The notes beneath the pieces are model-generated. The model was not told the origin of the DNA and did no database searches. It was given only the letters and a program-made list of their open reading frames with translations. From the NCBI RefSeq assembly GCF_901873445.1, contig NZ_CABFLN010000016.1, positions 134,105 through 198,104 of the forward strand: DNA of 64,000 bases. Reading direction: 5' to 3'. Shown piece by piece: positions 17,786 to 54,147 of the stretch. The translations under genes and the position numbers were made by a program. Each line of letters starts with the position of its first letter. Positions within the stretch are counted from its first letter, which is position 1. This DNA is from Gemella haemolysans (GTDB lineage Bacteria > Bacillota > Bacilli > Staphylococcales > Gemellaceae).

Positions 17786-17959
17786 GGGAGTGACTCAAAA
17801 ATCGTGATTTCAAAGAAATCGATTTTGTTGAGTTACCCCCGCACAGGTTATTAGATATCTAAAAAGCTTTTATAAAACGAATTTAGATATCAATAAACCA
17901 CTGCGTCTATGAGTTTCCATACAAACCTTGTTAAAATTTAGGGCTTTTGGGACAGCCCC
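17786..17959. repeat. MITE-like dispersed repeat, copy 1 (174 bp)
   Basis: This intergenic copy begins GGGAGTGACTCAAAAATC and ends, read on the other strand, GGGGCTGTCCCAAAAG. The two ends are imperfect terminal inverted repeats. Inside are two stem-loops: GTGACTCAAAAATC..GATTTTGTTGAGTTAC at one end and TTATTAGATATCTAAA..TTTAGATATCAATAA in the middle. It lies between the ydcF-like gene and tadA. Nearly identical sequence occurs at 35070-35244 and 54018-54147. Confidence 0.9.
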
Positions 17960-17963
17960 GATA

Positions 17964-18008
17964 GAAAAAAACTTAACAAAATTAATTTCAAAAATAATTT
18001 TGTTAAGT
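17964..18008 (-). terminator. Terminator after the YdcF-family gene
   Basis: A perfect 14-bp stem ACTTAACAAAATTA/TAATTTTGTTAAGT with a 10-nt loop is followed on the minus strand by TTTTTTTC. It is a strong intrinsic terminator 16 bp past the 18024 stop. Confidence 0.85.
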
Positions 18009-18023
18009 CGATTCTCTTAAACT

Positions 18024-19058
18024 CTAGCTATTATTAGCCCAATAAAATACTTCCACTAGGACAGCTGCTATAAACAAGGATGTCAGCACACCTAGAACTA
18101 TAGCGTGTATTCTTCTTTTGAAATATAGATATCCAATAAATTCTCTAATGAAAGCATTAAGACTGAAATAGAACTTAGTCGGTGCTCCATATCCAATACA
18201 CCTAAAACCTAAAGTTCTTGCTTGAACCAATGCACGATAAACGTGATAATAATTCGTCACCACTGCGAAACTTTTATCAGCTGGAATAAATTTCTTCGAA
18301 AAAATAATATTTTCTTCGGTAGAAGTTGATTTATCTTCTAGAATTATATCATTCTCATTAATCCCCTGCTCAAGAGCATAATTTTTCATCGCAAATGCTT
18401 CAGATACTACTTCATCAGGACCTTGACCACCTGACATGATTAGCTTACTCCCAGGATTAGCTTTATAAACTTTTATCCCTTTTCTAATTCTGCTAGCTAA
18501 AAGAGGTGTTACCCTTTCACCAATCAATCCTGCACCTAAGACCACTACATAGTCAATCTTTCTCGGTAAGATATTAATAAAATTTAAAACACTAGATACT
18601 AAATAAGACATCGCTATACATAAAAAATATAAAACTACTAAACTGGTATAAACATAAAGTGTATTTAACAGAATATTGTCACGTGTGTAGGTAGCAACAC
18701 GTGGCCAATATGTAAAATAACCTACCAGAAAGAAAAATACAGCTAGACTCAGTAGGTTGCCTACTCTTAATCCTTCTCTTCTAATAAGCATAAACGAATT
18801 GTATAAAAACATAATGACTACCACCATTGGAAGCAAAGTGAATATTACCACCGCTATAACAAGTAATACTACACCTAAATTATAAACAAACTTATTATCT
18901 GTTGCATTATTAGTAATAAGAGTCATTATATAAAAAATAAAACTTAAACCTGTCGCTATAAAAAATATTCCTAAAAATAGATTTCTTCTATCCAAGTATA
19001 AAACTAATAAGAACAGCAACAGAAATACCACAAAAACTATAAAAGAACCTATTACCAT
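18024..19058 (-). CDS. YdcF/DUF218-family membrane protein
   Basis: The 344-aa protein has about five N-terminal membrane helices (residues 1-165), then a DUF218 domain (DYVVVLGAGLIGERVTPLLASR, SKLIMSGGQGPDEVVSEA, LEDKSTSTEENI, VTNYYHVYRA), and a final membrane helix. DUF218 proteins such as SanA/ElyC are linked to envelope integrity. The biochemical activity is not established. AAGGAGG precedes the ATG. Confidence 0.85.
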   Translation of the reverse strand: MVIGSFIVFVVFLLLFLLVLYLDRRNLFLGIFFIATGLSFIFYIMTLITNNATDNKFVYNLGVVLLVIAVVIFTLLPMVVVIMFLYNSFMLIRREGLRVGNLLSLAVFFFLVGYFTYWPRVATYTRDNILLNTLYVYTSLVVLYFLCIAMSYLVSSVLNFINILPRKIDYVVVLGAGLIGERVTPLLASRIRKGIKVYKANPGSKLIMSGGQGPDEVVSEAFAMKNYALEQGINENDIILEDKSTSTEENIIFSKKFIPADKSFAVVTNYYHVYRALVQARTLGFRCIGYGAPTKFYFSLNAFIREFIGYLYFKRRIHAIVLGVLTSLFIAAVLVEVFYWANNS

Positions 19059-19614
19059 AAAAACCTCCTTCTTACATATGTATATTATAGATTATATTGC
19101 AAAATTAGTATAAGTGTCAATCGTGTCTAAGCATCAACAGTAATCTCCTGTAGACTTATTTCTAATCAACTCACAATAAACATAAAAATAAGGAATATTA
19201 AATTAAAAAGCTACACTTTCTCGCAACCTTACCATTATAACACAATAGAAAATTGTATAATCGAATTAGACATTAAAAAACATAGTAAAAATCTGTTATA
19301 CTAAATTTATCACAAAATACTAAGAAGATTTTTACTATGCCTAAACCTAATTCCATAAAGAAATAGAAACACCTAGTGCTCATAATCCGAAAAATCCCAA
19401 TCAATATGATTAGAAAAGCTAAGAGATACAAGAAGCAAAAAACATATACTACAGCTAAAACGCTATGAACAGACCTAAAACAATACTCAACAAGAGTAGA
19501 AGAAGTACGCCTAATGTAAATATCAGTATAGAAATGTGCAATAATTCGAAATTAACATGTTTTTTTAAATCAACAAGAAATTATCAAGAATTCAAATGAA
19601 ACTCTGTAAAACCT
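19059..19614. other. 556-bp region without an intact gene
   Basis: No intact ORF with a ribosome binding site is visible. A perfect 14-bp inverted repeat CATAGTAAAAATCT/AGATTTTTACTATG (19281-19294 and 19326-19339) flanks a TATACTAAAT-like -10. A plus-strand ATG at 19337 opens a frame (MPKPNSIKK) that meets a stop within about 30 bp. Several later short frames are also broken, as in a decayed gene or insertion-sequence remnant. I could not assign it. Confidence 0.5.
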
Positions 19615-21926
19615 TTATTTCTTCCCAAATAATCTTTGGAAAAAATTAACTTTCTCCCCTACATCTTGAATTTTTTCTTCAATAGTATTTTCTTGCTTAC
19701 CACCTGATTTTAGTGGAACATTTATCCATTCATGGAAAGAATCTTGGAAAATTTCAACAAATAAATCTGCATTTGTTTTGCTCGAACTTAAAACCTTATT
19801 CTCTAATGCTTCCGAATAAACTTTTGATGGTTTGGTATTATCCACTCCATACCTAGAACTTTGGAAATTATGATCAAGTTCACTCATCTTAATCATATAA
19901 ATATTTCTCTCTTCTTGCTCACCTTTAACTTCTTTAAACAATTCTGGAGAACCTATATACAGTTTGCACCACATCAACATATTATTTTTCGTTGCATCAT
20001 CTACACGTGAAAGTGGGAAAAAGTCAGGTAATTCAATTCCTGCGATTTCAAAATATTCTTTAAATATTTCACGAGTATAGTATAAGAAATCTAATTTATT
20101 TCCACTATAATGTTTCCAATTCAAATCATCTTGCATAAGTTTTCTAGAAAATCTCAAAACAAAATCTCTAAACAAGCTTGAATTAATCTTCTCGTAGACC
20201 TCTATATATCTATCTGTAGTTTCTGCTTATCTTTGCGAATCAAATTTACAATCATTTAGTAAATAATATATTTTTCTACTAAGAGCCTCTGATTTAGAAC
20301 TGATTGTTTCTGCATTAGTCGTACAAATAAATGCAGGAGTTAAGTGGATTTGATTTTCCGCTTGGTTAGAAATATCTTTAATCAAATCTTCACCTTTTCC
20401 ATTAAAGAAATCACTTGGAGGCTCGTCAACAAGTAAAGGCGCAACATTATCCTCATTAAGCATCCAATAACGAATCTGTTGACGCGTTGCAGAATCTTTT
20501 CTCGTATCATTGTCTATCAACTCATTATACGTTAGTATTTTGTTATCCGTAGTCAATCCTAACATCTTGTTTAAAATATTAAGTAAATTAGACTTTCCAG
20601 AACCCCCTGTTCCACCTACAATAGCAAATAAAGGTATACCCAAAGCTTCATTTCCTAATGTGAATTTTTCTCTAATCTCACCTATAAATGGTGATGTGAA
20701 TGTATATAATATTGTTTCCATAACACGTTTCCCATATTCAGGAGTATAATTAGGAACAAAATCTTCGTAATTTTTTAATAATTTACAAATTACATCAATA
20801 TTTTCCTTAATTTCTGCATCAGTTAGCTTCTCTCCTATTGGATAATAAGAAAAACGTTCTTCTAAAGCTTTCGTCTCTGGATTTATCGTACTTTCTATTT
20901 TTATTCCCTGTGATAAACCACTATTGCTCTCCGTTCTCAGTGCAGGTTTATTTATAATAAGCTCCCTCGGAGCAGTTTCCGATTTTACTTTTTTATCCTG
21001 AATTTGAAGTTGTAAGTATTTTTTAATATTCGTACGCATCTTAGCTTTGTCTAAAAGTTTCGTATCACTATTAGCGGTATTACCTGTCCTTCTATTAACC
21101 ACACTATTTGTGATTCTCAAAGCAAACTCCAGTTCATTAGCTTTTTGTTGAAATTCTTCTGCGCGGATTTGTTCGAATTCTTTTTCCTCTTTCAAATCTT
21201 CTATTAATTCTTGCTTTATCTCACCAACCGTAACTTTTTTCTGAACTTCATCATAAAAATCACTAATAGTATTCACTTTCAACTCAGAAGTTTCCTCTGG
21301 TGTGAAATTAATATTTAAATCAGGATCCTTGTCTTTTTTCTTAGTTATTTTATCTAAAACAGACTTCGCGAATAAGTTTTGAGTAGCAGAAATTATTGTA
21401 TTCTCATAATATTCATTATATATTTCAAAAATAGCATCGTTATCTCTAATTTCTACTATTTCTAATTGATTAGTACTGTTTGAAAATGCTTGTGTAGATA
21501 AATTTGCAGATCCTATAATAACCCGTGTTTCTTCTGTCTGCGTATTTTCTAATAGATATACCTTACTATGAATGGTTTTATCTATTGGTATTCTTATATT
21601 AAACTTATTTTTAGTAACTTTTTTTGAAGTCTCGAATTTAATTCTTCTATAAGCCTCATAGGTGTTCCATCATTTAGTATCTTTGTACTATTTATCAGTT
21701 GATGAATAGCTTGTTTTCTTGAACCTAGGGCTCTTTCTTGAACTTCACTGTCTTAAATAGCTACTGTTATTGTTGTTTCTTCAAAGTTTTCCAAGTACTT
21801 ATTGTAAAAATTCAAATCAATTGAAAAAGTTACAGCTTTTAATACATTATATTTATTAGGGTCAAATATCTCTCCTATTTCTAAATTTTTCTTTTCATTA
21901 TTTAATATCGTTAATAACGTCGTCAT
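19615..21926 (-). pseudogene. Decayed PLD-nuclease / P-loop ATPase fusion gene
   Basis: Read from an ATG at 21924-21926 with a good AAGGAA site, the gene spans about 770 codons. An N-terminal region is broken by TAA at 21753-21755. A frameshift near 21630-21650 follows. Then comes a phospholipase-D-like motif (IHSKVYLLEN, then RVIIGSANLSTQAF), a P-loop ATPase domain (AIVGGTGGSGKSNLLNIL, LLVDEPPSDFF, TTNAETISSKSEALSRK), an in-frame TAA at 20227-20229 and 203 further in-frame codons to 19615. Domain make-up resembles stand-alone defence effectors, but I recognise no named system. At least three lesions suggest it is inactive. Confidence 0.8.
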
Positions 21927-22269
21927 TCTTTATATTCCTTTTAATAATCTATAATTTTTTATATAGCGTTTTCCTCAATCATACAGCATTTAAACTAGCT
22001 ATAACTTAATTTTAATACATCAATCTTTATTCACTACTTCTGGCGCTCAATTTTTTTATCCAACTCCTGTGGATAATCGCCATCTGTACAGATAAAAACA
22101 CAAGTATATTACTATTTTCATAGCAATACACCTTATTATCTTTACGAAACACTATAAAATTTAAGGGGCTTCTTTCCCTCAACTTTTATCTATAGTAATA
22201 TTAATAACTTTTTATTCATATATTAATCTCTTTCCTTTACCCTGTTATATTATATCATAATTTTCTCAA
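21927..22269. other. AT-rich intergenic region
   Basis: Between the decayed gene and the nup operon terminator there is no ORF with a ribosome binding site and no strong repeat that I can see. Confidence 0.5.
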
Positions 22270-22315
22270 TAAAAAAGTAGCCCTTGAACTAAGAAGTTTC
22301 AAAGGCTACTAGTTT
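22270..22315 (-). terminator. Terminator of the nup operon
   Basis: TAGTAGCCTTTGAAAC pairs with TTCAAGGGCTACT, followed on the minus strand by TTTTTTATTG. It directly follows the nupQ stop. Confidence 0.85.
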
Positions 22316-22317
22316 TA

Positions 22318-23238
22318 TTATCTTAAACCTTTATCGTACGGAATACCAAGTGCTTCTGGAGTAGCAGTTTTCTTAGAAAATACGATAAGTGCAATTATTG
22401 TAGCTACGAATGGGAACATGTTCCAGAATGATACCGGAATTGGTAGGTCTGGTGCTAAGATAGAAACTTTCTCAGCGAATACTTTAGTTCCTCCGAAGAA
22501 TAACGAAGCTAATGTAATTGTAATTGGATTATATTTACCAAAGATTAATGCTGCTAATGCTAAGTATCCGAATCCGTATACTGTAATCGCTGCGTTGAAA
22601 CCTTGAGAGAATGTAGTTGCAATGATAGCTCCAGCTAATCCTGCTAAACATCCTGAAATAAATACCCCAATGTAACGATATTTAAATACGTTTAATCCAA
22701 GTGAATCACTTGCTTGTGGGTTTTCCCCAACAGAACGTAAACGTAATCCAAATGGACGTTTATAAATTACATAGTATGTTACAATTACTAAGATTACAGC
22801 TATAAATACTGTTGGATAAATAGTGAATTTACCAAATACTGTGTATCTTGGGAAACCACTTGCTAATAATAATTCATATGTACCATTATAGTGGTTAACT
22901 AAGAATAACGCTATAGCTGGTGTAATTAAGTTAATCGCCGTACCTGAAATAACTTGGTCAGCTTTTAAGTTAATACTGATATATGCGTGAATTAATGACA
23001 TTAACCCACCAGCAAAAGTTGCAACAACTAAACAAATTACTAGTTGGAATAGTGTTGGAGATCCATCAAACACTGATAATGCTAATAGTGATGCGATGAA
23101 TGATCCAAAGATTACGAAACCATCAAGGGCAATGTTAACAACCCCACTTTTTTCTGAATAGAAACCACCGATGGCAGCTATAAGAATTGGTGCAGTATAT
23201 TGTAACATTGAATCTAATAGTGATAATACTGTATCCAT
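22318..23238 (-). CDS. nupQ: Nucleoside ABC transporter permease, NupQ type
   Basis: The 306-aa protein is a branched-chain/nucleoside-type permease (BPD_transp_2 like) with about eight membrane helices. It has GGFYSEKSGVVNIALDGFVIFG near residue 20 and RSVGENPQASDSLGLNVFKYRY. Its ATG directly follows the nupP TAG, so the two are translationally coupled. With NupP it forms the membrane channel of a BMP-dependent nucleoside importer, as in Bacillus NupNOPQ. Confidence 0.9.
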   Translation of the reverse strand: MDTVLSLLDSMLQYTAPILIAAIGGFYSEKSGVVNIALDGFVIFGSFIASLLALSVFDGSPTLFQLVICLVVATFAGGLMSLIHAYISINLKADQVISGTAINLITPAIALFLVNHYNGTYELLLASGFPRYTVFGKFTIYPTVFIAVILVIVTYYVIYKRPFGLRLRSVGENPQASDSLGLNVFKYRYIGVFISGCLAGLAGAIIATTFSQGFNAAITVYGFGYLALAALIFGKYNPITITLASLFFGGTKVFAEKVSILAPDLPIPVSFWNMFPFVATIIALIVFSKKTATPEALGIPYDKGLR

Positions 23239-24303: not shown

Positions 24304-24315
24304 ACGTTCTCCTCT

Positions 24316-26123: not shown

Positions 26124-27230
26124 TTAAAGTTCTCCGTCGATATTAGCTTTATCAGCTACACCAGCAGCATCAGCTGCAACTGTTGCTTTACCAGCTTTTA
26201 GATTTTCAACAACTGTTTTAATTTTAGCTTTGATATCATCGCTTAAGTTAGGGTTTTCTGCTGGAAGTCCAACACCATCTTCTTTAATAGTGAAGACTCT
26301 AGCTTTTCCACCTTCAAATTTTCCAGCTTTGATAGCGTCTAAGATGTTAGATACTGCAACGTCGATACGTTTAACAGCTGAAGTTAAGATAACTGATTTT
26401 TCAACATCTTTTCCGTCTTTATCTTTAGCTTTGAATACACCTTCAGAATATTGGTCTTTATCTACACCAACGATCCAGTGTTTAACTTCTCCGCTTTCTT
26501 TAAGATCTTTAGTTGCTCTTTCTTGAGCTTCTTTGATAGATCCACTTCCAGTACCACCAGCTGCTACGAAGATTACGTCAGCTCCAGCATCGTACATAGT
26601 TGCTGCTAAAGTTTTACCTTTGTTAGTGTCGTTGAATGAACCACTGTAGTTGTAAACAACTTTGATATCTTTTTTAGCTGCTTTAGCACCTTGAACGAAT
26701 CCAACACCAAATTTAACTACTGCTGGGATTTTAGCTCCACCAATGTATCCAACTTTACCAGTTTTTGATTGTAAAGCTGCTGCATATCCAGCTAAGTATC
26801 CTGCTTCGTGTTCTGAGAATGTAACTGATTCTACGTTTTTGTTTTGAACTACACCATCGATGAAGATGAATTTTTTATCTGCAAATGAATCTGCAACTTT
26901 TGGTAATTCTTTTTCAAAGTAGAAACCAGCTAATGAAATTACGTCAGAAGCTTTTGCTGCGTTTTGTAAGTTTGCAGCGATATCACTTTGGTTTTTAGTT
27001 TCGATTGGGTTAAGTGCTTTTCCACCATTTTTTTCAGCCCAAGCTTTTACTGTTTCAACGTTACTTTGGTTGAAACTTTTATCTTTTGCTCCACCTTCGT
27101 CAGTTACAACACCGATTTTTAATCCAGAGTTGCTAGAAGATGAATTTCCGTTAGATGATTTAGAAGAACATCCAACAATAATTAATGCTGCCGATAAAAC
27201 AACTGCTATTAACGAAAATACCTTTTTCAT
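26124..27230 (-). CDS. nupN: BMP-family nucleoside-binding lipoprotein 1
   Basis: The 368-aa protein has a lipoprotein signal (MKKVFSLIAVVLSAALIIVGC, Cys at 21) and a PnrA/BmpA-like domain (GVVTDEGGAKDKSFNQSNVE, GYIGGAKIPAVVKFGVGFVQGA, VDKDQYSEGVFK). The family binds purine nucleosides for ABC import. I chose the ATG at 27228-27230 because GGAGA lies upstream and the signal peptide then begins correctly. A longer in-frame extension lacks both. Confidence 0.92.
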   Translation of the reverse strand: MKKVFSLIAVVLSAALIIVGCSSKSSNGNSSSSNSGLKIGVVTDEGGAKDKSFNQSNVETVKAWAEKNGGKALNPIETKNQSDIAANLQNAAKASDVISLAGFYFEKELPKVADSFADKKFIFIDGVVQNKNVESVTFSEHEAGYLAGYAAALQSKTGKVGYIGGAKIPAVVKFGVGFVQGAKAAKKDIKVVYNYSGSFNDTNKGKTLAATMYDAGADVIFVAAGGTGSGSIKEAQERATKDLKESGEVKHWIVGVDKDQYSEGVFKAKDKDGKDVEKSVILTSAVKRIDVAVSNILDAIKAGKFEGGKARVFTIKEDGVGLPAENPNLSDDIKAKIKTVVENLKAGKATVAADAAGVADKANIDGEL

Positions 27231-27789
27231 AAATAAAAAGTCTCCTTTATTTGTATATTGTTTATACCTAAATAATACCACATTATCTTTCAAACTTCAA
27301 TGATTTATTAAAAAATTGTTAACATTTTTTTATAATGTTCGTTTTCTAACTATAAAAACCTATAAAAGTAGTATTTATAGGAGTTATCATATCTATTCTT
27401 CTATATTCATATAAGATTATTTTAGAATAATAAAGCATTTTCAAAACATTAAGAACGTTTACATTTTTATACGAATTTTATATCCCAGACTATTATTACA
27501 CATTAATTATATTCTTTAGATAAAGACTTTATTTTATTGATATAATCGTATTTAATATTTTACGAACTTTAAAATATCACACTCTAATTATTGGATATTA
27601 ATGTATATTAATACTTATTCTTAAGATAAAACAATTTATGTAAAACTATAGATTTTAATAAATATTTAAAATCAACATTATCCAAAATAGATTATATTCA
27701 ACTATTGTTCTATTACCTCTAGATACGATAATTCTACATACTTTACTTTAATAAAATATCACATCTTAGATATCTACTATATGTTATTT
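27231..27789. other. AT-rich intergenic region between the two BMP genes
   Basis: This stretch upstream of nupN holds no ORF with a ribosome binding site. I looked for a purine (guanine/adenine) riboswitch core and saw none. It ends at the terminator of the second BMP gene. Confidence 0.5.
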
Positions 27790-27860: not shown

Positions 27861-28976
27861 TTATAGTTCACCTTCTAAATTAGTAACTGAACCTTTTGCT
27901 TTTAATTCATCTCCAGTAGCTACTACTTCGACTTTACCTGATTTTAGTTCTTCGATAGCACTAGCAACTTTTGTTTTAACTTCATCGCTTAAGTTAGGAT
28001 TTTCTTTTGGAATTCCTACACCATTTTCTTTAATACCAAAGACATGTTCACCTTTTGTAAATCTACCTTCTTTGATTTCATTTAATATTTTAGTAACTGC
28101 TACTTCAATATTTTTTACAGCTGATGTTAGGACTGCAGATTTTTGATATTCTTTTCCGTCTTTATCTTTCCCTTTAAAAATACCTTCTTCGTATTGATCT
28201 TTATCTACTCCTACAACCCAGTGTTTAATCTCTCCACTCTTAGACATATCGATAATACCACGTTCTTTAGCTTCTGAGATTACACCATTACCAGTATTAC
28301 CTGCAGCAACGAAAATTACATCTGCACCTGAGTCATACATAGTAGCTGCTAATGTTTTACCTTTATTTGTATCTGAAAAAGTTCCGCTATAATTATACAT
28401 TACTTTAATATCACTTTTAGCTGCTTTAGCACCTTGTACAAATCCAATACCAAATCGCTCTACTGGTGGAATTTTAGTTCCTCCAATATATCCAACTTTT
28501 CCTGTTTTAGATTGTAAAGCTGCAATATATCCAGCTAAATAACCAGCTTCTTGTTCCTTAAAGATTAATGAAGCAATATTAGGCGCATCAACAAAAGTAT
28601 CAACATACATGAATTTTTTATCTTTATATTGTTCCGCTACTTTTGGAATTTCTTTTTCAAATTCATAACCAGCTAAAGAAATAATATCAGATACTTTTGC
28701 TGCATTTTGTAAATTAGAAGTTAAATCCGATTGAGTTTTCGTTTCTAAAACAACTGGCTCTTTTGCACCATTAGCTTTCGTCCAAGCTTGAATAGCTTCT
28801 ACGTTAGCTTGGTTAAAACTCTTATCTTTTGCTCCACCTTCACCAGTTACGACACCAATTTTATATCCGCTCTTACCGTCAGATTTAGTGTCATTCTTAG
28901 CATTCTTTGAAGAACAACCAACAACAATTAATGATAATGCAACTAGAATTGCAAAAATAGTACGTAATTTTTTCAT
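27861..28976 (-). CDS. BMP-family nucleoside-binding lipoprotein 2
   Basis: The 371-aa protein has a lipobox (LSLIVVGC) and the same fold and motifs as its neighbour: GVVTGEGGAKDKSFNQANVE, GYIGGTKIPPVERFGIGFVQ, VDKDQYEEGIFK. The two are clear tandem paralogues over their full length. It has its own AAGGAGGG site and terminator, so it is probably expressed separately. It may widen the ligand range of the one NupOPQ transporter. Confidence 0.92.
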   Translation of the reverse strand: MKKLRTIFAILVALSLIVVGCSSKNAKNDTKSDGKSGYKIGVVTGEGGAKDKSFNQANVEAIQAWTKANGAKEPVVLETKTQSDLTSNLQNAAKVSDIISLAGYEFEKEIPKVAEQYKDKKFMYVDTFVDAPNIASLIFKEQEAGYLAGYIAALQSKTGKVGYIGGTKIPPVERFGIGFVQGAKAAKSDIKVMYNYSGTFSDTNKGKTLAATMYDSGADVIFVAAGNTGNGVISEAKERGIIDMSKSGEIKHWVVGVDKDQYEEGIFKGKDKDGKEYQKSAVLTSAVKNIEVAVTKILNEIKEGRFTKGEHVFGIKENGVGIPKENPNLSDEVKTKVASAIEELKSGKVEVVATGDELKAKGSVTNLEGEL

Positions 28977-31436: not shown

Positions 31437-31481
31437 TATAGAAGCAATAATCAAATATTTTACTTGAATACCGCTTCTATA
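31437..31481 (-). terminator. Terminator after nrdD
   Basis: TATAGAAGC pairs with GCTTCTATA (31473-31481 and 31437-31445), with additional pairing inside and ATTTTTTG on the minus strand. Confidence 0.7.
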
Positions 31482-34840: not shown

Positions 34841-36362
34841 CTACTTTTCTACGCTGTGCTTCATCGAATAACTAAAGTAAATTACTAATCCAACTAAAAT
34901 CCAACATCCGAATATTATCCATGTAGATAATTGAATCCCATATAATAATACAATAAATAATAATATAGAAATTATAGGTAAGTATGGCATTCCTGGCATA
35001 GTAAAACCACGCTTAGAATTAGGATACTGTTTTCTTATTATAATTATCGAATAACTAACCAACGTAAATGGAAGTGACTCAAAAATCGTGATTTCGTAGA
35101 AATCGATTTTGTCGAGTCACTCCCGCACAGTTTATTAGATATCTAAAAAGTTTTTACAAAACGAATTTAGATATCAATAAACCACTGCGTCTATGAGTTT
35201 TCATGTAAACTATTTTTAAAATCTAGTACTTTTGGATCAGCCCCTAAATCTGCTAACTGTCCTAATGGTAAAAAACCTGTTAGTAATGCCATTAATATTC
35301 CTACACCTATTGTCGTTGAACCTGGTACTCCATTTTTATTTAATTCCGTTAATTTTTTAGGTAATAATCCGTCTCTACTCATTGTAAATAAAATCCTAAT
35401 TGAAGCGGACATAGTAGCTAATGGTCCTGCTAATAAATCAATTACAGCTCCCAGTGATATTATCCCTGCAATCTTATCTTGTCCTACTGCTTCTAGAACA
35501 TAAGCCAGAGCATCACCTTTTCCTAATTGTGAGTAGGGTACCATTCCTATTAAAACAAGACATACAATAATATAGAACGCCGTACAAATTAGCAATGTAA
35601 TTATAATAGCTCTTGGTAGAGACTTCTGAGGATTTATAGTTTCTTCAGCTGAAGTTGATATTGTATCAAATCCAAGATATGCAAAGAAAACTGTCGTAGC
35701 TCCTACCATAATCCCTGATAAACCTTGAGGAGCGAAGTCATTTGTCCAATTATGAGGTTTCACATAAAATACTCCAACTAACACAAATAAAATTATTACA
35801 GCAATCTTAGTAACTACCATAAAATTATTAACAAACTTACTACTACTCGTTCCTTTAAACAATACAATCATTATTAATAAAACTACAGAAATCGCCAAAA
35901 GATTTCCATAACCCCCCTCACTAGGTAGACTTGTAAATTTCTTTGGAACAATGACGCCAAAACCTTCTAGTAAATTTTTAAAATAACTAGACCAACCGTT
36001 TGCAATCGCAGCACCAGCAATTATATAACTTCCTCCAAGAAGCCAGCCCATTGAATGGGCAACAATCTCACCTAATGTCATGTAACTATAAGTATAAACA
36101 CTTCCACTAGATGGTATCGCAGACGATAACTCGGAATAATATAAAGCTGTTAATCCACAAGCTAAACCAGCAATTAAAAATGAAAAAATTACCGATGAAC
36201 CCACTTTAGATGATGCTTCGCCCGTTAGAACAAGAATACCGGAACCAATTACAGAACCTACTCCTAAGAGAATTAAATCCATAGTTTTCATAGTTGGTTT
36301 TAAAGTTTTTTTACCACTTTCTCCGAGGATCCTTTCCAATGTTTTTTTCTAAAAATCCTCAT
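34841..36362 (-). pseudogene. Amino-acid permease (APC family) broken by a repeat element
   Basis: The N-terminal part (to about 35245) has APC helices and motifs (LLGVGSVIGSGILVLTG, GFDTISTSAEETINPQKSLPRAI), like cationic amino-acid permeases. The last helices lie separately at 34841-35068 (LVSYSIIIIRKQYPNSKRGFTMP). Between them is repeat copy 2, and about 9 expected codons around the IGTLFA helix are missing. A second lesion sits at the 5' end: ATG at 36360-36362 has a good ribosome binding site, but the following run of seven A is one base short for the frame. A functional permease is unlikely. Confidence 0.88.
35070..35244. repeat. MITE-like dispersed repeat, copy 2 (175 bp)
   Basis: This full-length copy has ends GGAAGTGACTCAAAAATC and, on the other strand, GGGGCTGATCCAAAAGTA. 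It interrupts the permease gene. TAAAT occurs directly outside both ends, but the host codons do not rejoin cleanly there. It aligns with copy 1 along the full length with few changes. Confidence 0.92.
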
Positions 36363-39448: not shown

Positions 39449-40756
39449 TTATTCGAATACTGTTTGACTATCTACTTCAACAGTTAAAGCATGTAATGCT
39501 TTTTCTACAAGACCTCTTCTTAGTTTTTTCTCTTCATCCGCATCTAATTTAGGATTTCCTAGTGGGTGAGGAATTGCTATAGTAGGTACGATTCTGTTCG
39601 CTCCCACTGTTAGAGAAATTGGTACTACTGTACACATGTGAACCACAGGTATACCCGCTCTCTCTATTTCTTTTACCATCGTTGCACCGCAACGAGTACA
39701 AGTACCTCAAGTAGAAGTTAAGATTACAGCATCTACTCCATCAGCTACTAATTTTTGTGCATATTCTTTTGCAAATCCTACTGCGCTAGCAACGGCTGTA
39801 CCATTACCTACAGTTGTATAGAATTTTTCATGTAAACTTCCAATTTTACCTTCCTTAACGAAATCTCTCATTACATCAACTGGTAATACTCTATCTGAGT
39901 CTTCATTTGCATACACAGGGTCATATCCACCGTGAGCTGTTTCATGAGTTTCGGCAGTTAAATCGTTAAATCCTTCTAATGAGTATTCTCCATATTTAGA
40001 AGCTGAAGATGATTCGATATGATCTGGATTACCTTTTGGCACGATTCCTCCAGAAGTTACTAGGGCAATTTTTGCTTTAGTTAAATCTTTAACAGCTGGA
40101 TTCGGTTCTACTCTATCGAAGTTAGGCATAGGATATTCTGTTTCGAACTCTTCACCTTTAATTTTCTTAACAAGCATTTCAACAGCACGTTCAGAACCAC
40201 GTTTTTCACTAAAGAAGTTTACACGAACTCCTCTTTCATGGTATCCTTCTTCTTTTGGAGATAAGATTTCTTCGCCTTTAGCTAATTTCGCTGCGAATTT
40301 AGCTAATTTTGGTAAAGCTTTTCTCATACCTGCAGCACTGTCAGATGTTTCAAGAATATAAACTTCTTTTCTAAACATATCTGTACCAGGGTTTTCTACA
40401 TACATAGCTGTTACTGCTGGAATATGAAGTTCGTCTTGAACAGCTTTAGTAATTGTTCCTGCTGCAACCCCGTAACGCCCTGCATTAAAAGCTGGTCCTG
40501 CGATAAATAATTGAGGATCGCATCCTTTAATCATATCAATAAGTTCTACTTGAACTTTTTCTAAATTTTCATTGAAGTAGCTATCTCCACAAACTACTGT
40601 AGCTACTACTTCGAATTCTTCTCCCAACTTGCCTTGTAACTGAACACTAATTGGTGGTAATTCAGTTCTTAATTCTGGTGCAATGTGGGCTTTTTCTTCT
40701 CCACCTACTCCGGCAAAGAATTGGTTTATATAATGTACTACTCTTATTTTAGACAT
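39449..40756 (-). CDS. grdB: Glycine reductase protein B, selenocysteine subunit
   Basis: This 435-aa protein is read through UGA at 39707-39709, giving ILTSTUGTCTRCGATMVKE with selenocysteine at residue 350. The upstream part starts MSKIRVVHYINQFFAGVGGEEKAH, and the downstream part continues as HPLGNPKLDADEEKKLRRGLVEKALHALT. GrdB binds the glycine amino group with GrdE and passes the carboxymethyl group to GrdA. Standard gene finders will stop it at residue 349 and call a separate 3' piece. Confidence 0.95.
39680..39694 (-). promoter_or_regulatory. Candidate SECIS hairpin of grdB
   Basis: CGUUGC-GGU-GCAACG is a perfect 6-bp stem with a GGU apex, starting 12 nt after the UGA; the loop G is nt 19 after it. 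Bacterial SECIS elements sit directly downstream with a G near the loop start. The same GGU apex occurs in the prdC hairpin. Confidence 0.65.
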
Positions 40757-44317: not shown

Positions 44318-44359
44318 TAAAAAAATAAAAAACAGAAAGAAAGTTAGCTTTCTCCCTGT
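44318..44359 (-). terminator. Attenuator of the glycine riboswitch
   Basis: ACAGGGAGAAAG pairs imperfectly with CUUUCUUUCUGU (44348-44359 with 44332-44343), then a long U/A-rich tail (UUUUUUAUUUUUUU) follows on the minus strand. It lies between the aptamer and the grdX start, as expected of a transcriptional attenuator. Confidence 0.75.
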
Positions 44360-44365
44360 TGTCCT

Positions 44366-44466
44366 ACTTCAGAGTTCTGTCCTAGCGCAGTCTTTTTACC
44401 TGAGAATTTCATCAATATTTGCCAAATATTAATTTGTACCTTCGGTGACTAATGTCCTCTCCTACA
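44366..44466 (-). ncRNA. Glycine riboswitch (single aptamer visible)
   Basis: The RNA has the conserved glycine aptamer parts in order: GGAGAGGA, then CACCGAAGG, then CUCAGGUAAAAAGAC, then GGACAGAACUCUG. One aptamer is clear; an adjoining partial helix may be a ghost aptamer. It sits 60 nt before grdX, so glycine would turn on the glycine reductase operon. Compare family RF00504. Confidence 0.9.
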
Positions 44467-44486
44467 CTATTCTTACAGTATATTTC

Positions 44487-47763: not shown

Positions 47764-47795
47764 AATAATTCACTCCTTAATTATTGCTTTTGTTG

Positions 47796-48269: not shown

Positions 48270-48283
48270 AATAACACCTCTTT

Positions 48284-49021
48284 CTATACCATTGCTCTTA
48301 TCGCACCATCGCGATATTCATTAGCTGTTAGTAGCACTGGCATATTGTTCATATCTATAATAGAAATACCTTTATCTATTCCACTAGGTTCTATTGGGAA
48401 TAACTGATTATCATACATCATCCCTTGTCCTGCAACTTCTTTAACTAAAGCTACTTTAGGTTTTCCAGAATTTTTTGGATTATAAAATTCGTGAACTTCA
48501 TCAGCATCGCGTCCGCTAAGAACTTTCATCACTTCTCTTATATTTTGTAAATATACATCTGATAATTCAAAAATAGAAAATGCTAAAGCCCTATCGAAAT
48601 CCACATCTGATTTAATAATAACATCTATATGTATTAAATAATCATTATCAGTTGGAGAACCTGCTTTATTCAGCACAAGTTGCTCCTTTAAAATACCTTC
48701 TGAAGAACCAAATTCATGCATTTGTTCTCCTTTAGTATTCGCACCTGTTAGTAACATGTAAACCCCTGTTAAAGTATGCGTAATCCCTTCACCAAGTCTT
48801 CCTAAAACCTTTGTAGATATAGGAACTATATCCATTATAGTATTTACATAGAAGTCATGTTCTCGAGGTTTTATTACTTTCACCTCTACGCTTTCAAATA
48901 TATTTTTATCATATTCAATCTCTGTTGGAATAATAAGTTCATTGTTTTCAATTTTAACTTTTTTCCCTAAAACAACATTTTTTATGTGAAATGCTTTTAT
49001 TTGCAATCTCTCTTTTGACAT
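48284..49021 (-). CDS. prdD: D-proline reductase-associated protein PrdD (PrdA N-half homologue)
   Basis: The 245-aa protein matches the part of PrdA before its cleavage site, including LTGANTKGEQMHEFGSSEG (PrdA: LTGTDANGVQIGEFGSSEG) and ending VLLTANEYRDGAIRAMV. I chose the ATG at 49019-49021 because AAGGGA is 9 nt upstream; a TTG three codons earlier abuts the site. PrdD plus PrdE thus looks like a split PrdA. It begins a second transcription unit after the prdB terminator. Confidence 0.88.
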   Translation of the reverse strand: MSKERLQIKAFHIKNVVLGKKVKIENNELIIPTEIEYDKNIFESVEVKVIKPREHDFYVNTIMDIVPISTKVLGRLGEGITHTLTGVYMLLTGANTKGEQMHEFGSSEGILKEQLVLNKAGSPTDNDYLIHIDVIIKSDVDFDRALAFSIFELSDVYLQNIREVMKVLSGRDADEVHEFYNPKNSGKPKVALVKEVAGQGMMYDNQLFPIEPSGIDKGISIIDMNNMPVLLTANEYRDGAIRAMV

Positions 49022-49048
49022 AACTATCAATCCCTTACTATTTTATTT

Positions 49049-49064
49049 ACTGTATTAATACAGT
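49049..49064. promoter_or_regulatory. 16-bp perfect palindrome upstream of prdD
   Basis: ACTGTATTAATACAGT is a perfect palindrome 28 bp before the prdD start and downstream of the prdB terminator. It is a good operator candidate. The regulator is unknown. Confidence 0.45.
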
Positions 49065-49096
49065 TTGTAAGTTGTTTACTAGTACAGATATTTCGT

Positions 49097-49128
49097 TAAA
49101 AAAGAAGAGGGACACCCGTCCCTCTTCT
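49097..49128 (-). terminator. Terminator after prdB
   Basis: AGAAGAGGGAC pairs perfectly with GTCCCTCTTCT around a 4-nt loop, then TTTTTT on the minus strand. It splits prdC-prdA-orf-prdB from prdD-prdE-prdF. Confidence 0.88.
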
Positions 49129-49138
49129 GATATTTCTC

Positions 49139-49864
49139 CTACACGTGAGCAATATACTCAAATGGAAGAGGAACTATTTTACCTGAACTTGGTATTTTAA
49201 TTAGTTGCTCTAATGTTGCTTTTAGAATTTGTGTTTGTTGCTCAACGTTTCCTGGTTCCCCAGCGTTAGCACCCATTGGTACAAGTGGTGCAACGGCTCT
49301 AGGAGTACCGTTTTGACGCACTACTGGAGGTAGTGCTGCTATTAAGATTGTTGGAATACCTGCTTCCTCAATTGCTCTCTGCACGATCACGGCAGTTCTG
49401 TGACAAGTACCTCAACCAGCAGTTAAAATAACTGCATCAACATTTTCTTCTTTTAATTTTTTAGCAATCGCTGGCCCTGTAGAGTTTGTGAAAGCCTCTT
49501 GGTCTCCACCACCACCCATGAAACCATAGTGGAATTCTGCTACACTACCGATGAAACCTTCTTTTGCAAGTTCGTGTAATCTATCGATTGGGAACATACA
49601 GTTGATGTCTCTGTTAGCATCAGCGTTATCATATCCACCGTGTGATACCATAAGATCTGTACTGTGTGCAGTATCTGGGATTTCACGGAATGTAGTATCC
49701 CCTGCTAAGTTAAATCTTTTATCTGTTTTTAAGTGAACTCCTGCTGCTGTAGCTAATGCTACTTTCATATCTTTTAACTCTTTAGTTACTGGAGCCCAAA
49801 CTGGTTTTGGTGTAATAGGTACAAAAATTTCTGATTGTAAACCTTCAAATATCGTTAATGACAT
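49139..49864 (-). CDS. prdB: D-proline reductase selenoprotein PrdB
   Basis: This 241-aa protein is read through UGA at 49412-49414 (codon 151), giving VILTAGUGTCHRTAVIVQRA. The selenocysteine motif parallels GrdB (UGTCxRC). It starts MSLTIFEGLQSEIFVP and ends PLPFEYIAHV. PrdB with the cleaved PrdA forms the D-proline reductase that makes 5-aminovalerate. The length equals clostridial PrdB only if UGA is decoded. Confidence 0.95.
49379..49395 (-). promoter_or_regulatory. Candidate SECIS hairpin of prdB
   Basis: CUGC and GCAG form a short stem starting 16 nt after the UGA, with loop CGUGAUCGU. It is weaker than the grdB and prdC hairpins. Another pairing (UCAC/GUGA) is possible, so the call is tentative. 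Confidence 0.35.
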
Positions 49865-49882
49865 TCTAATTTCTCCTTCCTA

Positions 49883-50170
49883 CTATTCTTCATTTAGTCT
49901 GTTTTTTACTTCTTCTTGTAATTTTTTTGTATTTAATATTGCATTTACATAATGTTCGTCAGGTTCTTCGCTTATAACTTCTGGATAACTTAGTAAAAAT
50001 GCTACCTCTTGGCCAATTTTTACTGGATAATCAGAAATTAACATTCTCATAGGAATTTTAAATTGCCCTAAGCGTCCTTTAATGTCTATCGTAACGCTAG
50101 CATCGTTATGATCAACAATCACCCCTTCGAACACTCTTTCTGTAGATGCATATTTTAGTTTTTCAATCAT
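49883..50170 (-). CDS. Small conserved protein between prdA and prdB
   Basis: The 95-aa protein (MIEKLKYASTERVFEGVIVDHNDASVTIDIKGRLG...) has a beta-rich, OB- or KOW-like pattern and no membrane segment. A small gene at this place is also found in clostridial prd clusters. Function unknown. Tight spacing (18 bp to prdB, 26 bp from prdA) indicates co-expression. Confidence 0.75.
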   Translation of the reverse strand: MIEKLKYASTERVFEGVIVDHNDASVTIDIKGRLGQFKIPMRMLISDYPVKIGQEVAFLLSYPEVISEEPDEHYVNAILNTKKLQEEVKNRLNEE

Positions 50171-50196
50171 AACTTACTTCCTATCCTCTTTAAAAA

Positions 50197-52128
50197 TTAA
50201 TCTTCTTTTTCGTAGATTTCTTGACGTTTTTTAGATTTTGGTAATACTTGTTCGTTATCAAGTAATTCTACTTTTTGTCCTGTAGTTTTTTCAATAACTT
50301 CTACGTTATTTAATTTAACGTTAGGATTCCATTTTCTTTCAGCTTTTTTAATTGTTCCGCCACCCATTTGTGTTTTAAGCATTGCTAAAGCACGGATAGC
50401 ATCTTCTTTACATAATGTATTGTTTGAAAGAATTTCGTTTTCAATACCTTGTTTAGATTTGTTGTTATCAACCATAGCTGTCATGTATTCGTTACCTACT
50501 ACAAGAGCACCTTGTACTGCTGAGTAAGTCATACCAACTACTGATACTCCACGTTTACCGATTTCTTCAATGTGTGAAGCGAAGTCGATGTGGTTGTTAC
50601 CAAATCCTTCAGTTGTTACGATAGCACCATCGATGTCCATTGCTTCGATAGTCATACCTACACGTTTAGATACATAGAATTTTTCTGAGTTAGCTTGAGG
50701 TGATCCAACTAATAATACCCCTACTAAGTCGATTTCTTCATCAGCCATTGCTTCAAGTACTAACGGTTCACGGTAGTAGTGACGAGAAGTTTCTTTAGAA
50801 GCTGGTCCAATACAAGTTAATGCGTGGATACCACCGTCTAAAATTTCTGTTGGCGCAAGCATTACTGGTAAGTTACCAAGGTCAACGTTTGGTTTAGCAC
50901 CAAGTGTTCCAACTGGTTCTACTGGTAAAATTAAGTTATCGTGCATAGCACCTTGTCCCATGATTTCTTTAACGATTAATACTTTTTTGTTTCCTGGGTG
51001 ACGATATTGTTCAATATTGATGTTTCCAACTACTAGGCTTTCATCATCTAATTCTTTAAGAGCTTTACGAATTTCTTCTGTAATGTGGTCGAATGCTTTG
51101 TGAGCTGCTAATGGTCCTGGACGTTCCATGTTAGCTCCTGCTTTAATTGTAACTTGACCTTTAATGAAGATTTCACCTTTATCTGGAGCTCCTGGACGTC
51201 CCCACATAATGTTACGTTCTAATTCACCTTCAGAAGAACCGAATTCCCCGATTTGAACTCCGTTAGCATCAGTTCCTGTAAGAACCATTACTACACCTTT
51301 AAGTTCACGAGTAATACCATGACCAAGGTCTCCTTCTTCTTTAACAGCGATTGGTTGAACGTCCATGATTGTTTCACTGTAAGTGTCATATTTATCAGGA
51401 GTGATAATTTCTAATTTAACACTTTCTACTAAGGCTTCTGATTCAGCTGCTTCTTTACATAAATCTTCTGCTGTTCTTAAAACTAAAGTAGTTCCTTTAA
51501 TTTCTGTTTTTTCACCAAATTCTACTTTGTCGATTTTGTAGTGTTTAGTGTGTAGAGAACGAATAAATTTAGGTTCTCCTTCGTGTTTTTCTTCCACTTT
51601 AGCTGCTACTGCTTCTGCTTTTGCTGCTTCAACAGCTTTGGCTTCCACTGCTTGAACTGGAGCTTGTGCTACTGGAGCTGCTTGTCCACCGATAGCTGCT
51701 AATGGAATTTCAAGGTTGATGTTTTCACCTTTTCCGATTTGAAGTTTTAATACTCCCGCTGGAGCTTGCGTTTGAGCTACCGGTGTAACCGGAGCTACAG
51801 GCGCAACTGGTGCGCCAACTTCAGCTACTGGAGCTTCTACTACTTCTTCTTTTTCTTCTACTTTTTCTTCTCCACCTTGTACGGCATCAATGATACCTGG
51901 TGTAATAGGTATTAGAGCGTCTGTTGTTTTTAATAATTTGGCTCCTAATACTTGTCCAATTGTTAATGCATCGTCTGGGAATGATAGTAAACCTGAATCC
52001 ACTAAATCATCGAATAATCCTGGATCTTCTAAGTTTTCTGGACTAATTACGATACCTTCCTCAGCTCTGCAACAAAATACCGCTTTATCATTTAAGTGCT
52101 CTTTTGCAGTTTCTACTGTAATTGACAT
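50197..52128 (-). CDS. prdA: D-proline reductase proprotein PrdA
   Basis: The 643-aa proprotein has an Ala/Pro/Val-rich linker (about 97-180) and the cleavage motif GGIHALTCIGPASKE at Thr438-Cys439, where PrdA is autocatalytically cut to yield a pyruvoyl-containing subunit that binds D-proline. The part after the site matches PrdE, and the part before matches PrdD. GGAGG lies 9 nt before the ATG. Its start is 20 bp after the true prdC stop. Confidence 0.94.
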   Translation of the reverse strand: MSITVETAKEHLNDKAVFCCRAEEGIVISPENLEDPGLFDDLVDSGLLSFPDDALTIGQVLGAKLLKTTDALIPITPGIIDAVQGGEEKVEEKEEVVEAPVAEVGAPVAPVAPVTPVAQTQAPAGVLKLQIGKGENINLEIPLAAIGGQAAPVAQAPVQAVEAKAVEAAKAEAVAAKVEEKHEGEPKFIRSLHTKHYKIDKVEFGEKTEIKGTTLVLRTAEDLCKEAAESEALVESVKLEIITPDKYDTYSETIMDVQPIAVKEEGDLGHGITRELKGVVMVLTGTDANGVQIGEFGSSEGELERNIMWGRPGAPDKGEIFIKGQVTIKAGANMERPGPLAAHKAFDHITEEIRKALKELDDESLVVGNINIEQYRHPGNKKVLIVKEIMGQGAMHDNLILPVEPVGTLGAKPNVDLGNLPVMLAPTEILDGGIHALTCIGPASKETSRHYYREPLVLEAMADEEIDLVGVLLVGSPQANSEKFYVSKRVGMTIEAMDIDGAIVTTEGFGNNHIDFASHIEEIGKRGVSVVGMTYSAVQGALVVGNEYMTAMVDNNKSKQGIENEILSNNTLCKEDAIRALAMLKTQMGGGTIKKAERKWNPNVKLNNVEVIEKTTGQKVELLDNEQVLPKSKKRQEIYEKED

Positions 52129-52148
52129 TACTTCTAACCTCCAACTAA

Positions 52149-53468
52149 TTATTTATTATTATGTAATTCTAAGCTTTTATAGCTTCTGTATAAATGATGG
52201 TCAGTGGCACGAAGTACATGATCGGTACTATGATAAACTTTTACTCCTAACCTAGGAGCTACACCTGTCACGGTGTTAGTTCAATCCTGACAAGTACCAG
52301 TAATGACTGCTTTCGCACCATCTTTTTTCATCTTCAATACTTTTTCCGCTTGCCCTGGACAAATACCAGGTAATTCACAACGTAATCTTCCATTTTTATC
52401 AGGAGTCATACGTTTACACATCTGAACAGATACAACTTCTGCACCCATTCCATCAGCTATTTGTCTCAAGCGTTCTTCTTGTGCTCCACATTCACAAATA
52501 AGTATTCCTACTTTTTCTTTTTCTTGTGGATATGGCATTGCTACAAGTAAACCACCTGTTGTCTTGTTGATTGGCTCTGTTTCTAATGCGGGGCGTCCTG
52601 TAAACGGTCCTCCACGCACTATTTCTCCGTGTGGATAAATATAACCACCGGCTTTTTCTATAAATACGCTTATTGGTAATCCAATTGGGACGTCTAAGAA
52701 AACGCCTGGATTTTGGACACGACCACCAACAGTAATATCTTTATCAATCAGTGGTTTATCTTCTTCAATTGCTTCTACTACACGTTTAATAGTTTCCACA
52801 TTCGAAATAATTGCATTTGCTTCTAGTGGCAATTGCCCTGGTTTTAAGATTACACCAAGTGTTTCTCTTACGATAACTCGTTCGTCACCGGCAGGATACA
52901 TATTAGGCAAAATTTTAATACTAATATTAGGCTCATTTTTACAAGCTTTACCTAATGCTAGCATTGCTTTACGATATTTTGTTTTAATAGCAATGTATCC
53001 TTCTTTCGCACCAGTTAATTCAACTATGTATTTTAAACCTCTTACTAAAGCTTCTGGATTTTCTTCCATGAATTTTACGTTATGACCTAAGATAGGTTCA
53101 CATTCTGCTGCATTCGCAATAACGTATCCACCAGGAATTTGTGCAGACAATTTAATCCCAGTTGGGAAACCTGCCCCACCAACTCCAACGATACCAGCAT
53201 CTTTAATTTTTTGAAGTTTATCATCAGTTTTCTCTAATCTAACATAGTCATCAGTTTGTTCTTTATCCAATTTAACGATTATTTCCATATCGTTAATTTC
53301 TTCTACAACACCTGATAAACTAGTGTGAATATTTGCTCCTAACCCATTGGGGGTTGCTACTAGTTGACCACGTTTAACATGATCGCCTACATTTACAATT
53401 GGTTGACAAGGACCACCGACGTGTTGTTTAAGTGGAATATTGATTTTTTCAACATCAAACTCTAACAT
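52149..53468 (-). CDS. prdC: Selenoprotein PrdC (RnfC-like electron carrier)
   Basis: This 439-aa protein is read through UGA at 52281-52283 (codon 396): VITGTCQDUTNTVTGVAPRLGVKVYHSTDHVLRA follows the family tail. The N-terminal KQHVGGPCQPIVNVGDHVKRGQ and GVGGAGFPTGIKL are RnfC-like. PrdC passes electrons to the PrdAB reductase. A late stop at 52149-52151 closes the gap to prdA to 20 bp. It is the first gene, after the promoter at 53534. Confidence 0.93.
52244..52258 (-). promoter_or_regulatory. Candidate SECIS hairpin of prdC
   Basis: CUCCUA-GGU-UAGGAG is a perfect 6-bp stem with a GGU apex, loop starting at nt 29 after UGA. A closer hairpin, ACACC-GUGACA-GGUGU (52261-52276), also starts its loop with G. 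The GGU apex matches grdB. Confidence 0.6.
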
Positions 53469-53533
53469 TACTTTTTCCTCCTTTCTTTAAAATTTGTTTA
53501 CAAGCAGTAGTTCCAAACTTCTACTACATTTAT

Positions 53534-53561
53534 TGTATAACAGTATATAACTTTTTGTAAA
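53534..53561 (-). promoter_or_regulatory. Probable promoter of the prdC-prdA-prdB operon
   Basis: TTTACA (53556-53561), a 16-bp spacer and TATACA (53534-53539) with an upstream TG form an extended -10 promoter. No prdR-like regulator gene and no -12/-24 element were seen in the window, in contrast to C. difficile. Confidence 0.5.
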
Positions 53562-53967
53562 GGTTTATTTTATTAAAAAAACAATATATATTTAAATTTT
53601 TTTATATAAATATTACGTTTTTCATACAGAATGTTAGTAAGAAAGGATTTTCATTCTAATTTTTTTAAAATTTTTATTTAGTCAATTTATATCTAATTGA
53701 AATGCGTTATCAATTTATATAATCTCAAATCTGATTCATATGTATACATTTGCATCCGTAAATATTTTAATTTTATCATACTTGCTGTATATATATACTT
53801 AGTTTAATTTTACTCTTTTTATGTAGCGAATCTTTTTTTAAAAAAACTTCATAAAACCTACATTTTACATACTTTAAAATAATATAAGTTCTTTTACTTA
53901 GTATAAATTAGGTGTTCCAACTGTATTACAAAAGATGTCCGTACAAATTCATATAAAAACTATAACA
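53562..53967. other. AT-rich intergenic region upstream of the prd operon
   Basis: No ORF with a ribosome binding site and no riboswitch-like motif was seen in this part. It ends near the terminator associated with repeat copy 3. Confidence 0.4.
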
Positions 53968-54011
53968 CATAAAAAATACCCCTTTCTCTGGTTTGTCCAG
54001 TAAAAGGGGTA
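53968..54011 (-). terminator. Terminator beside repeat copy 3
   Basis: TACCCCTTT pairs with AAAGGGGTA, with a further GG/CC pair in the loop, followed by TTTTTTATG on the minus strand. It lies just past the truncated end of the repeat and would stop transcription from the NUDIX remnant. Confidence 0.75.
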
Positions 54012-54017
54012 CATATC

Positions 54018-54147
54018 AGTCACCCCCGCAAAGTTTATTAGATATCTAAAAAGCTTTCACAAAGCGAATTTAGATATCAATAAACCACTGCGTCTAATGA
54101 GTTCTCATATGAACTTTGTTAAGTTTTAGGTCTTTTGGGTCAGCCCC
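54018..54147. repeat. MITE-like dispersed repeat, copy 3 (truncated, about 130 bp)
   Basis: The copy keeps the GGGGCTGACCCAAAAGAC end and the central TTATTAGATATCTAAA..TTTAGATATCAATAA hairpin, but lacks the outer about 45 bp with the GGGAGTGACTC hairpin. It interrupts a NUDIX gene. Confidence 0.88.

Follow-up and report, generated by a model that had tools for sequence, protein, structure and literature searches.

Introduction

IS1272 and TnSha1, both of the insertion sequence (IS) family IS1182, delete a stem-loop at the target and leave no target-site duplication; the target has no fixed sequence, and the stem-loop is sometimes a terminator (PMC5678879, PMC4923244). In the model proposed by Wan et al., the 3′ ends of the element are joined at the 3′ feet of cruciform stem-loops, and the stem-loops are then removed. 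As far as these sources go, stem-loop-replacing transposition has so far been described for IS1272 and its carrier transposon (PMC5678879, PMC4923244).

Here we describe a short repeat from Gemella haemolysans, three copies of which lie in a 64,000-nucleotide stretch of DNA (the window; all positions follow its numbering, and G and L handles denote compared genomes and loci, respectively). The repeat is real, high-copy and mobile, and it is probably a non-autonomous element of the IS1182/IS1272 type that has spread by stem-loop-replacing transposition in trans; its membership as such in the IS1272-type family is likely, judging from one of its ends and from a decayed partner element. An earlier interpretation made from the letters of the window (the sequence-only reading) had described the repeat as similar to a miniature inverted-repeat transposable element (MITE). 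It missed the main point, namely that the element is inserted without target-site duplication and replaces a lost segment, often a stem-loop. The nearest compared genome (G001) has 41% of sampled 31-letter words in common with the window.

Results

The repeat takes the place of a lost segment

The full element is 174–175 bp long (copies 1 and 2, Table 1) and contains two hairpins between imperfect terminal inverted repeats, for which a direct count gave 14 matches in 18 positions. The hairpins are real according to the consensus folds, with −53.4 kcal/mol (z = −5.9) for one strand and −62.2 kcal/mol (z = −9.1) for the other. An ungapped repeat search of the whole window groups the three copies as one family, with an identity of 89% for copy 2 and of 64% for copy 3, the latter over a stretch that includes unrelated sequence on the left; by BLAST, copies 2 and 3 are 88.6% and 87.7% identical to copy 1. 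Direct reading and the ungapped search place the three copies where the sequence-only reading had seen them, and the terminal match and the two internal palindromic hairpins that it had listed were reproduced as well. One correction concerns copy 3, which lacks the first ~45 bases because the end of an IS3-family element sits in their place. The term MITE-like was apt: the repeat is short, has no coding capacity, ends in inverted repeats and occurs in many dispersed copies. A target-site duplication is absent, as it is in IS1272-type elements.

Empty and occupied alleles were compared as the sequence-only reading had proposed, using the 500-bp flanks of 110 unique full copies from the window, from 800 kb each of G004 and G009, and from 101 further loci, the majority of them from G001 and G005; few loci of more distant species were included. 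A pair was accepted if the alignments of its two flanks each came within 5 bp of the element. This yielded 97 flank-matched pairs, 63 occupied and 34 empty, and the latter were grouped by eye into 19 sites, excluding those known just from looser comparisons, some of which had no clear hairpin. At 18 of the 19 sites, the empty allele has 19–43 bp that are missing from the filled allele, and a target duplication of more than 2 bp was found at none.

At most sites, the segment is symmetrical about a dyad. For 11 of 18 sites, the centre of the lost segment is no more than 2 bp away from the best local dyad, with 1.3 expected (binomial P = 7e-9; position control, 27 of 400 arbitrary intergenic points), and dyads scoring at least 20 were present at 12 of 18 sites versus 96 of 400 controls. 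When each segment was compared with 1000 windows of the same length from repeat-free intergenic DNA, 9 of 19 folded at p < 0.05, six of them at p < 0.01 (Fisher combined, 1.9e-8). At 15 of 19 sites, versus 8.4 expected, a stem closes near both junctions (P = 0.0017). Among the lost segments are many clean hairpins, such as GACCTATCGGTTCACACCGGTAGGTC and ACCTAAGGTGAGGATGACCTCATCTTAGGT; several segments have T-rich sequence behind them, an arrangement also seen in intrinsic terminators.

Most sites compare two or three genomes, and there we infer the direction of change by assuming that the empty allele is the older state. At the site of copy 2, the empty allele is the older state because relatives keep the gene intact.

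A conventional MITE, inserted by a DDE transposase from a different family and flanked at first by a short target-site duplication that later decayed, would share the terminal inverted repeats, the small size and the high copy number, and TAAAT stands on both sides of copy 2. The empty alleles, however, show loss rather than gain at 18 of 19 sites. Moreover, L051 and L053 have the right-hand TAAAT of copy 2 in their empty alleles, and the remaining empty alleles have an altered form of it; it is therefore ancestral. A conventional target duplication was rejected from the flanks of the copies together with the empty alleles, and we regard this origin as very improbable.

The ends are of the IS1182 type

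In the Gemella genome G003, a decayed IS1182 element has a left end that agrees at 14 of 16 positions with the right end of the repeat, a match reached by none of 100,000 shuffles. The agreement is 14 of 16 for both ends of this remnant, 15–16 of 16 for ends in G008 and G015, and 9–12 of 16 for staphylococcal and Mammaliicoccus IS ends. The terminal repeats of the element are thus IS1182-like, the left one more weakly so.

The decayed transposase in G003 lies between GTGGCTGATCCAAAAG and CTTTTGGGGTCAGCCCC, both of which resemble the right end of the repeat. Compared with an intact IS1182 transposase from Mammaliicoccus, it shows 55% identity over 98 residues, and one open piece of it scores 85 bits against the NCBIfam IS1182 profile. 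A search of 15 genomes of the family with an IS1182 profile gave matches above the cut-off only in G004, pieces at contig ends in G001 and G002, and the broken copy in G003. G008 contains one left and one right end of this kind; they do not belong to one complete element, and no transposase match was obtained there. In G015, a genome of the sister genus that is 66% complete, 14 right-end matches with at most one mismatch were found, eight of them within ~60 bp of a contig end, as would be expected from collapsed multicopy elements. At L268–L276 and L278 of this genome, most of which are contig ends, sequences of at least three kinds adjoin the GGGGCTGACCCAAAAG end; these are perhaps unassembled, still multicopy IS1182-type elements of the sister genus. 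The sequence-only reading had suggested looking for a transposase with matching ends; such ends were found only at the decayed element of G003, at the ends in G008 that lack a transposase, and in the contig-end sequences of G015. The partner may be extinct, unassembled, or present in strains beyond those compared.

The intact IS1182 elements of G004 were rejected as partner, since their ends (CAGGCTGTTGACAAA) match at 8 of 16 positions only. One of them has the same 31-bp palindrome on both sides, and this flanking duplication together with the poor end match assigns the G004 elements to a different subgroup. By eye, terminator-like palindromes flank the CAGGCTGTTGACAAA-ended copies of G004: the two are the same in L226, seem to have been exchanged between the nearby L224 and L228, and differ in L221. 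At least in L226, the target stem-loop is duplicated and not lost, the opposite outcome within the same genus.

In sum, loss of a segment without duplication was found at 18 of 19 sites and a dyad-centred segment at 11 of 18, which is the behaviour of IS1182/IS1272-type elements. The following observations weigh against assigning the repeat to this type. At site 39, nothing is lost and the flanks overlap by 2 bp (one of 19). The dyad is off centre at seven of 18 sites, namely 31 (−7), 41 (−11), 51 (−4), 62 (+17), 69 (−7.5), 90 (+7) and 97 (−5); the nominal centre of site 31 is shifted because the element there has no right end, a post hoc argument. Ten of the 19 segments miss p < 0.05 in the fold test (one at 0.09, six at 0.20–0.53, three at 1.0), and sites 41 and 69 have no convincing hairpin. 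Two of the window's own copies are among the poor cases: copy 1 (site 41) replaced 19 bp for which the nearest relative shows no fold (p = 1.0; dyad 11 bp from the centre), and copy 2 (site 62) replaced 23 bp that fold weakly (p = 0.21; dyad 17 bp from the centre). In G009, the allele of the 23 bp lost at copy 2 does fold exactly from one end to the other (GCTATTATGTAAGAGACATTAGC, −4.6 kcal/mol), which is no more than suggestive. A simple terminator scan around copy 1 found none. The left end matches IS ends at 10–12 of 16 positions only and is thus further off than the right end. Finally, the 15 genomes of the family, of which two are 66% and 72% complete, yielded no intact IS1272-like transposase, and the lone remnant is broken.

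Stem-loops might also be exchanged between hairpins by recombination, gene conversion or template switching, with no transposase involved. Such an exchange would suit the many hairpin targets and the failure to find an intact partner in the 15 family genomes. It would also suit site 31, where the element lacks its right end and the junction falls in a shared TTTT run, and one further pair, in which G005 has the full element where G001 has a 57-bp hairpin-only form. At most of the 19 sites, however, the junctions lie at or near the element's own termini, the flanks have no homology to the element by eye, and the ends follow those of the IS1182 elements in two host groups, so that we consider exchange unlikely. 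Movement as a REP-like element by a RAYT or another HUH (Y1) transposase would account for a palindromic, mostly intergenic, high-copy repeat with no target duplication. The loss of the target stem-loop and the IS1182-type ends speak against it and make it highly improbable.

Copy number and distribution

Exact matches to the left end were found in 64 stretches of named genomes, all from Gemella (haemolysans, cuniculi and bergeri). Matches were obtained in 11 of 40 relatives: nine of nine of the genus, where G007 gave a single weak match, two of six of the sister genus, and none of 25 of the remaining order. In G004, the best 40 of 114 first-look candidates were scored and all matched, giving 43 matches of which three are weak second alignments. 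With copy 2 plus flanks as query and the best 40 candidates of each genome, at least 44 matches were obtained in G001, at least 44 in G004, at least 51 in G005 and at least 50 in G009, counts that contain a few permease-flank matches or second alignments. Within 800 kb of G004, 44 copies (24 full) were found, and 45 (25 full) within 800 kb of G009; these densities are biased upward since many stretches had been picked for known copies or window orthologues. The high-copy family that had been predicted from three copies accordingly exists, with at least about 40 copies in each of four relatives (G001, G004, G005 and G009).

The repeat had also been called undescribed. The literature search, which covered little of the subscription journals, retrieved no Gemella repeat of this kind; the label needs qualification to the extent that related repeats occur in the same order and that the Rfam family RF02894 (S35) matches. 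Copy 1 gave no match in phage and plasmid records. The 16-bp right end is present in 25 viral-contig stretches, a count without chance baseline.

Interrupted genes and an IS3-family element in hairpin 1

Two of the copies break genes, as had been read from the window and as is borne out by longer frames in relatives. The permease has 382 amino acids from its listed start versus stop-to-stop frames of 461–462 amino acids in four relatives, and copy 2 occupies the place of 23 bp of coding sequence that the compared relatives retain. The NUDIX protein cut by copy 3 has 94 amino acids versus stop-to-stop frames of 160 amino acids in two relatives. Copy 3 is common to the window, G001 and G004 at the same place. 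The site of copy 1 is empty in G001, G004 and G009, and no relative whose two flanks could be aligned as far as the site has copy 1 or copy 2.

A complete copy of the IS3-family element whose remnant adjoins copy 3 is found next to the copy-3 counterpart in G004. This element (L058:1-1490) is ~1.49 kb long, and its orfB scores 301 bits against NF033516. All six complete copies in 800 kb of G004 are at the same position in hairpin 1, three per orientation, with apparent 3-bp AAA/TTT duplications by eye; half of the stretches had been selected partly for repeat copies. One 63-bp fragment (87% identity) lies outside any repeat. The IS3-family element is a site-directed IS, like IS1397 for REPs. 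At L083:7566-7602, a very short palindromic form of the IS3 end (~37–50 bp) sits in the hairpin of the repeat, possibly as a nested mini-element. As source of the repeat, the IS3-family element was rejected, for it is located within the repeat and the two have no ends in common by eye.

Position of the copies relative to genes

In the 72 copies with both canonical ends, A is enriched in the left flanks (0.51 over the final 8 bases versus 0.37 further out) and T in the right flanks (0.51 versus 0.36). The gene context could be counted roughly, taking mechanical open reading frames as genes: of 52 placed copies, 41 lie in co-directional, 8 in tail-to-tail and 3 in head-to-head gaps, with 545, 123 and 147 such gaps, respectively, in the background. 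On the strand opposite to the genes are 32 of the 41 copies in co-directional gaps, and 27 of the 41 are nearer the 3′ end of the upstream gene. The flank and gap pattern fits insertion into terminators, and there was perhaps selection for an orientation that still terminates.

The strand and position counts, together with the matches to S35, would also suit a structured RNA (an S35-like small RNA (sRNA) or a dispersed terminator) kept by selection, with its spread incidental. However, copies break genes, and for pairs with changes on both sides the count was 27 of 64 at the true register versus 27 and 28 with partners slid by one base. As the true register is no better than the slid controls, there is no covariation signal beyond the palindromes; compensatory base changes were rejected as evidence for an RNA function. 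Maintenance as an RNA is quite unlikely on these grounds.

Table 1. Copies of the repeat, their parts, targets and neighbouring features in the window
Feature	Position	Strand	Remarks
Copy 1	17786..17959	+	full 174-bp element, intergenic
Left terminal inverted repeat	17786..17801	+	GGGAGTGACTCAAAAA; end comparison
Hairpin 1	17786..17840	+	consensus positions 1-55; left end plus own reverse complement; consensus folds
Hairpin 2	17841..17904	+	consensus positions 56-119, around TTAGATATCTAA; consensus folds
Right terminal inverted repeat	17944..17959	+	family consensus read inward, GGGGCTGACCCAAAAG
Copy 2	35070..35244	+	full element inside amino-acid permease gene
Copy 3	54018..54147	+	consensus positions 46-174 only
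IS3-family remnant	53956..54013	-	58 bp, formerly inserted in hairpin 1 of copy 3
Cytidine/deoxycytidylate deaminase-type gene	17245-17742	-	neighbour of copy 1
DUF218 gene	18024-19058	-	neighbour of copy 1
Permease fragment	35191..36339	-	382 amino acids; runs into copy 2 and stops there
NUDIX-domain gene	54094..54378	-	94 amino acids; truncated by copy 3
Empty target	17203..17230	.	28-bp A+T-rich palindrome; copy in its place in G004, G009 and G005
Empty target	31441..31477	.	37-bp hairpin, dyad exactly central; copy in its place in G001 (L081)
Terminator-like hairpin region	54383..54442	.	3′ of nucleotidyl-transferase gene; gap holds copy in G009; outside the 19 sites, right flank unaligned to junction

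Other features of the window

A SECIS_4 element (39669-39706) and a glycine riboswitch (44352-44478) are in line with a putative selenoprotein glycine-reductase locus. The adjacent open reading frames at 26124-27293 and 27861-28976, whose DNA is 72–79% identical over several stretches, look like diverged duplicates.

Discussion

The mechanism of Wan et al., with the element moved in trans, is by analogy likely to apply to the Gemella repeat. A MITE-like element of ~174 bp, with two internal hairpins between imperfect terminal inverted repeats, would be recognised at its ends by an IS1182-family transposase of the IS1272-like subgroup acting in trans. The ends would be joined at the feet of a target stem-loop; the stem-loop would then be lost and the element would take its place, leaving no duplication. 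The transposase step in trans and the order of the cuts are what we infer here. Since intrinsic terminators are common intergenic stem-loops, many copies would thereby have replaced a terminator-like hairpin, and because they bring strong hairpins between A-rich and T-rich flanks, the inserted copies may themselves serve as terminators. A high-copy, gene-less element that apparently replaces stem-loops in this way offers many natural insertion events for study, and it would be a selfish element able to remodel transcript ends genome-wide.

Related repeats occur elsewhere in the order. A staphylococcal left-end pattern, GGGAGTGGGACAGAAAT, was used as search pattern with up to one mismatch allowed. 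Of 25 genomes of the order, 8 contain it, G020 with 52 occurrences; the reversed pattern gave no match. Of six loci shown, the four in forward orientation have hairpin 1, then CCCCGGCA (three) or CCCCCGCA (one), then hairpin 2. In L300, the right end TTTATGTCCCAGGCTC closes a 161-bp element and is identical at 15 of 16 positions to the end of ISSau3 on an S. aureus plasmid; a right end resembling that of staphylococcal IS1182 elements, with at most three mismatches, was present at four of eight scanned loci. In these four loci, the repeats of genus g5 (presumably Staphylococcus) have the same two-hairpin layout as the Gemella repeat, and the S35 covariance model matches both groups, whereas the ends differ in their core (GGGACA versus GACYCA).

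The model, Rfam RF02894 (S35 / srn_0335), matches in 9 of 18 genomes searched, with eight places above the cut-off, all in G020. In G001, G004 and G009, the best matches reach 50–52 bits (top, 52.4 bits; E = 1.8e-12 per genome), below the gathering cut-off of 69 bits, and copy 1 scores 33.6 bits (E = 7.9e-5). No S35 match was obtained in G007, the Gemella genome almost without the repeat, or in any of the 14 control genomes.

A study of S. aureus sRNAs lists srn_0335/S35 as a 'Repeated region' (PMC5826253). The Gemella repeat differs from S35 in that the latter is annotated as an sRNA. STAR repeats, whose function, origin and propagation in staphylococci are stated to be unknown, are likewise dispersed and intergenic (PMC3532100). 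The S35 consensus contains the STAR-like GUUGGGGCCCC, and a program scan found the STAR consensus in two of eight examined loci of related genomes; the Gemella consensus, unlike STAR, has by eye no copy of the 14-bp motif T(G/A/T)TGTTG(G/T)GGCCC(C/A). A common origin of the Gemella repeat and STAR is a lead.

We tentatively consider, as a possibility that we somewhat doubt, that Gemellaceae and Staphylococcaceae share a superfamily of short two-hairpin elements, staphylococcal repeats such as S35 and possibly STAR-bearing ones included, which swap themselves for stem-loops of the host, above all terminators. Their ends would co-evolve with the resident IS1182/IS1272 transposase, the internal hairpins would retain one architecture, and dozens of transcript 3′ ends would have been replaced per genome. 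If true, this would supply a propagation mechanism for staphylococcal repeats such as S35; the shared layout and the S35 matches suggest such an answer for at least part of the staphylococcal STAR repeats.

As with REP/BIME sequences and IS1397, a palindromic repeat is itself the preferred target of an IS3-family element (PMC1525189). REPs are 20–40 bp long (PMC3733652), in contrast to the 174 bp and the IS1182-type ends of the Gemella repeat. With IS1272 and TnSha1, the repeat has in common the stem-loop target, the deletion of the stem-loop and the lack of a duplication, the ends of IS1272 being 16 bp long. It is distinguished from them, in which the transposase is carried or adjacent, by its 174 bp without a gene, its two internal hairpins and its lineage-specific ends.

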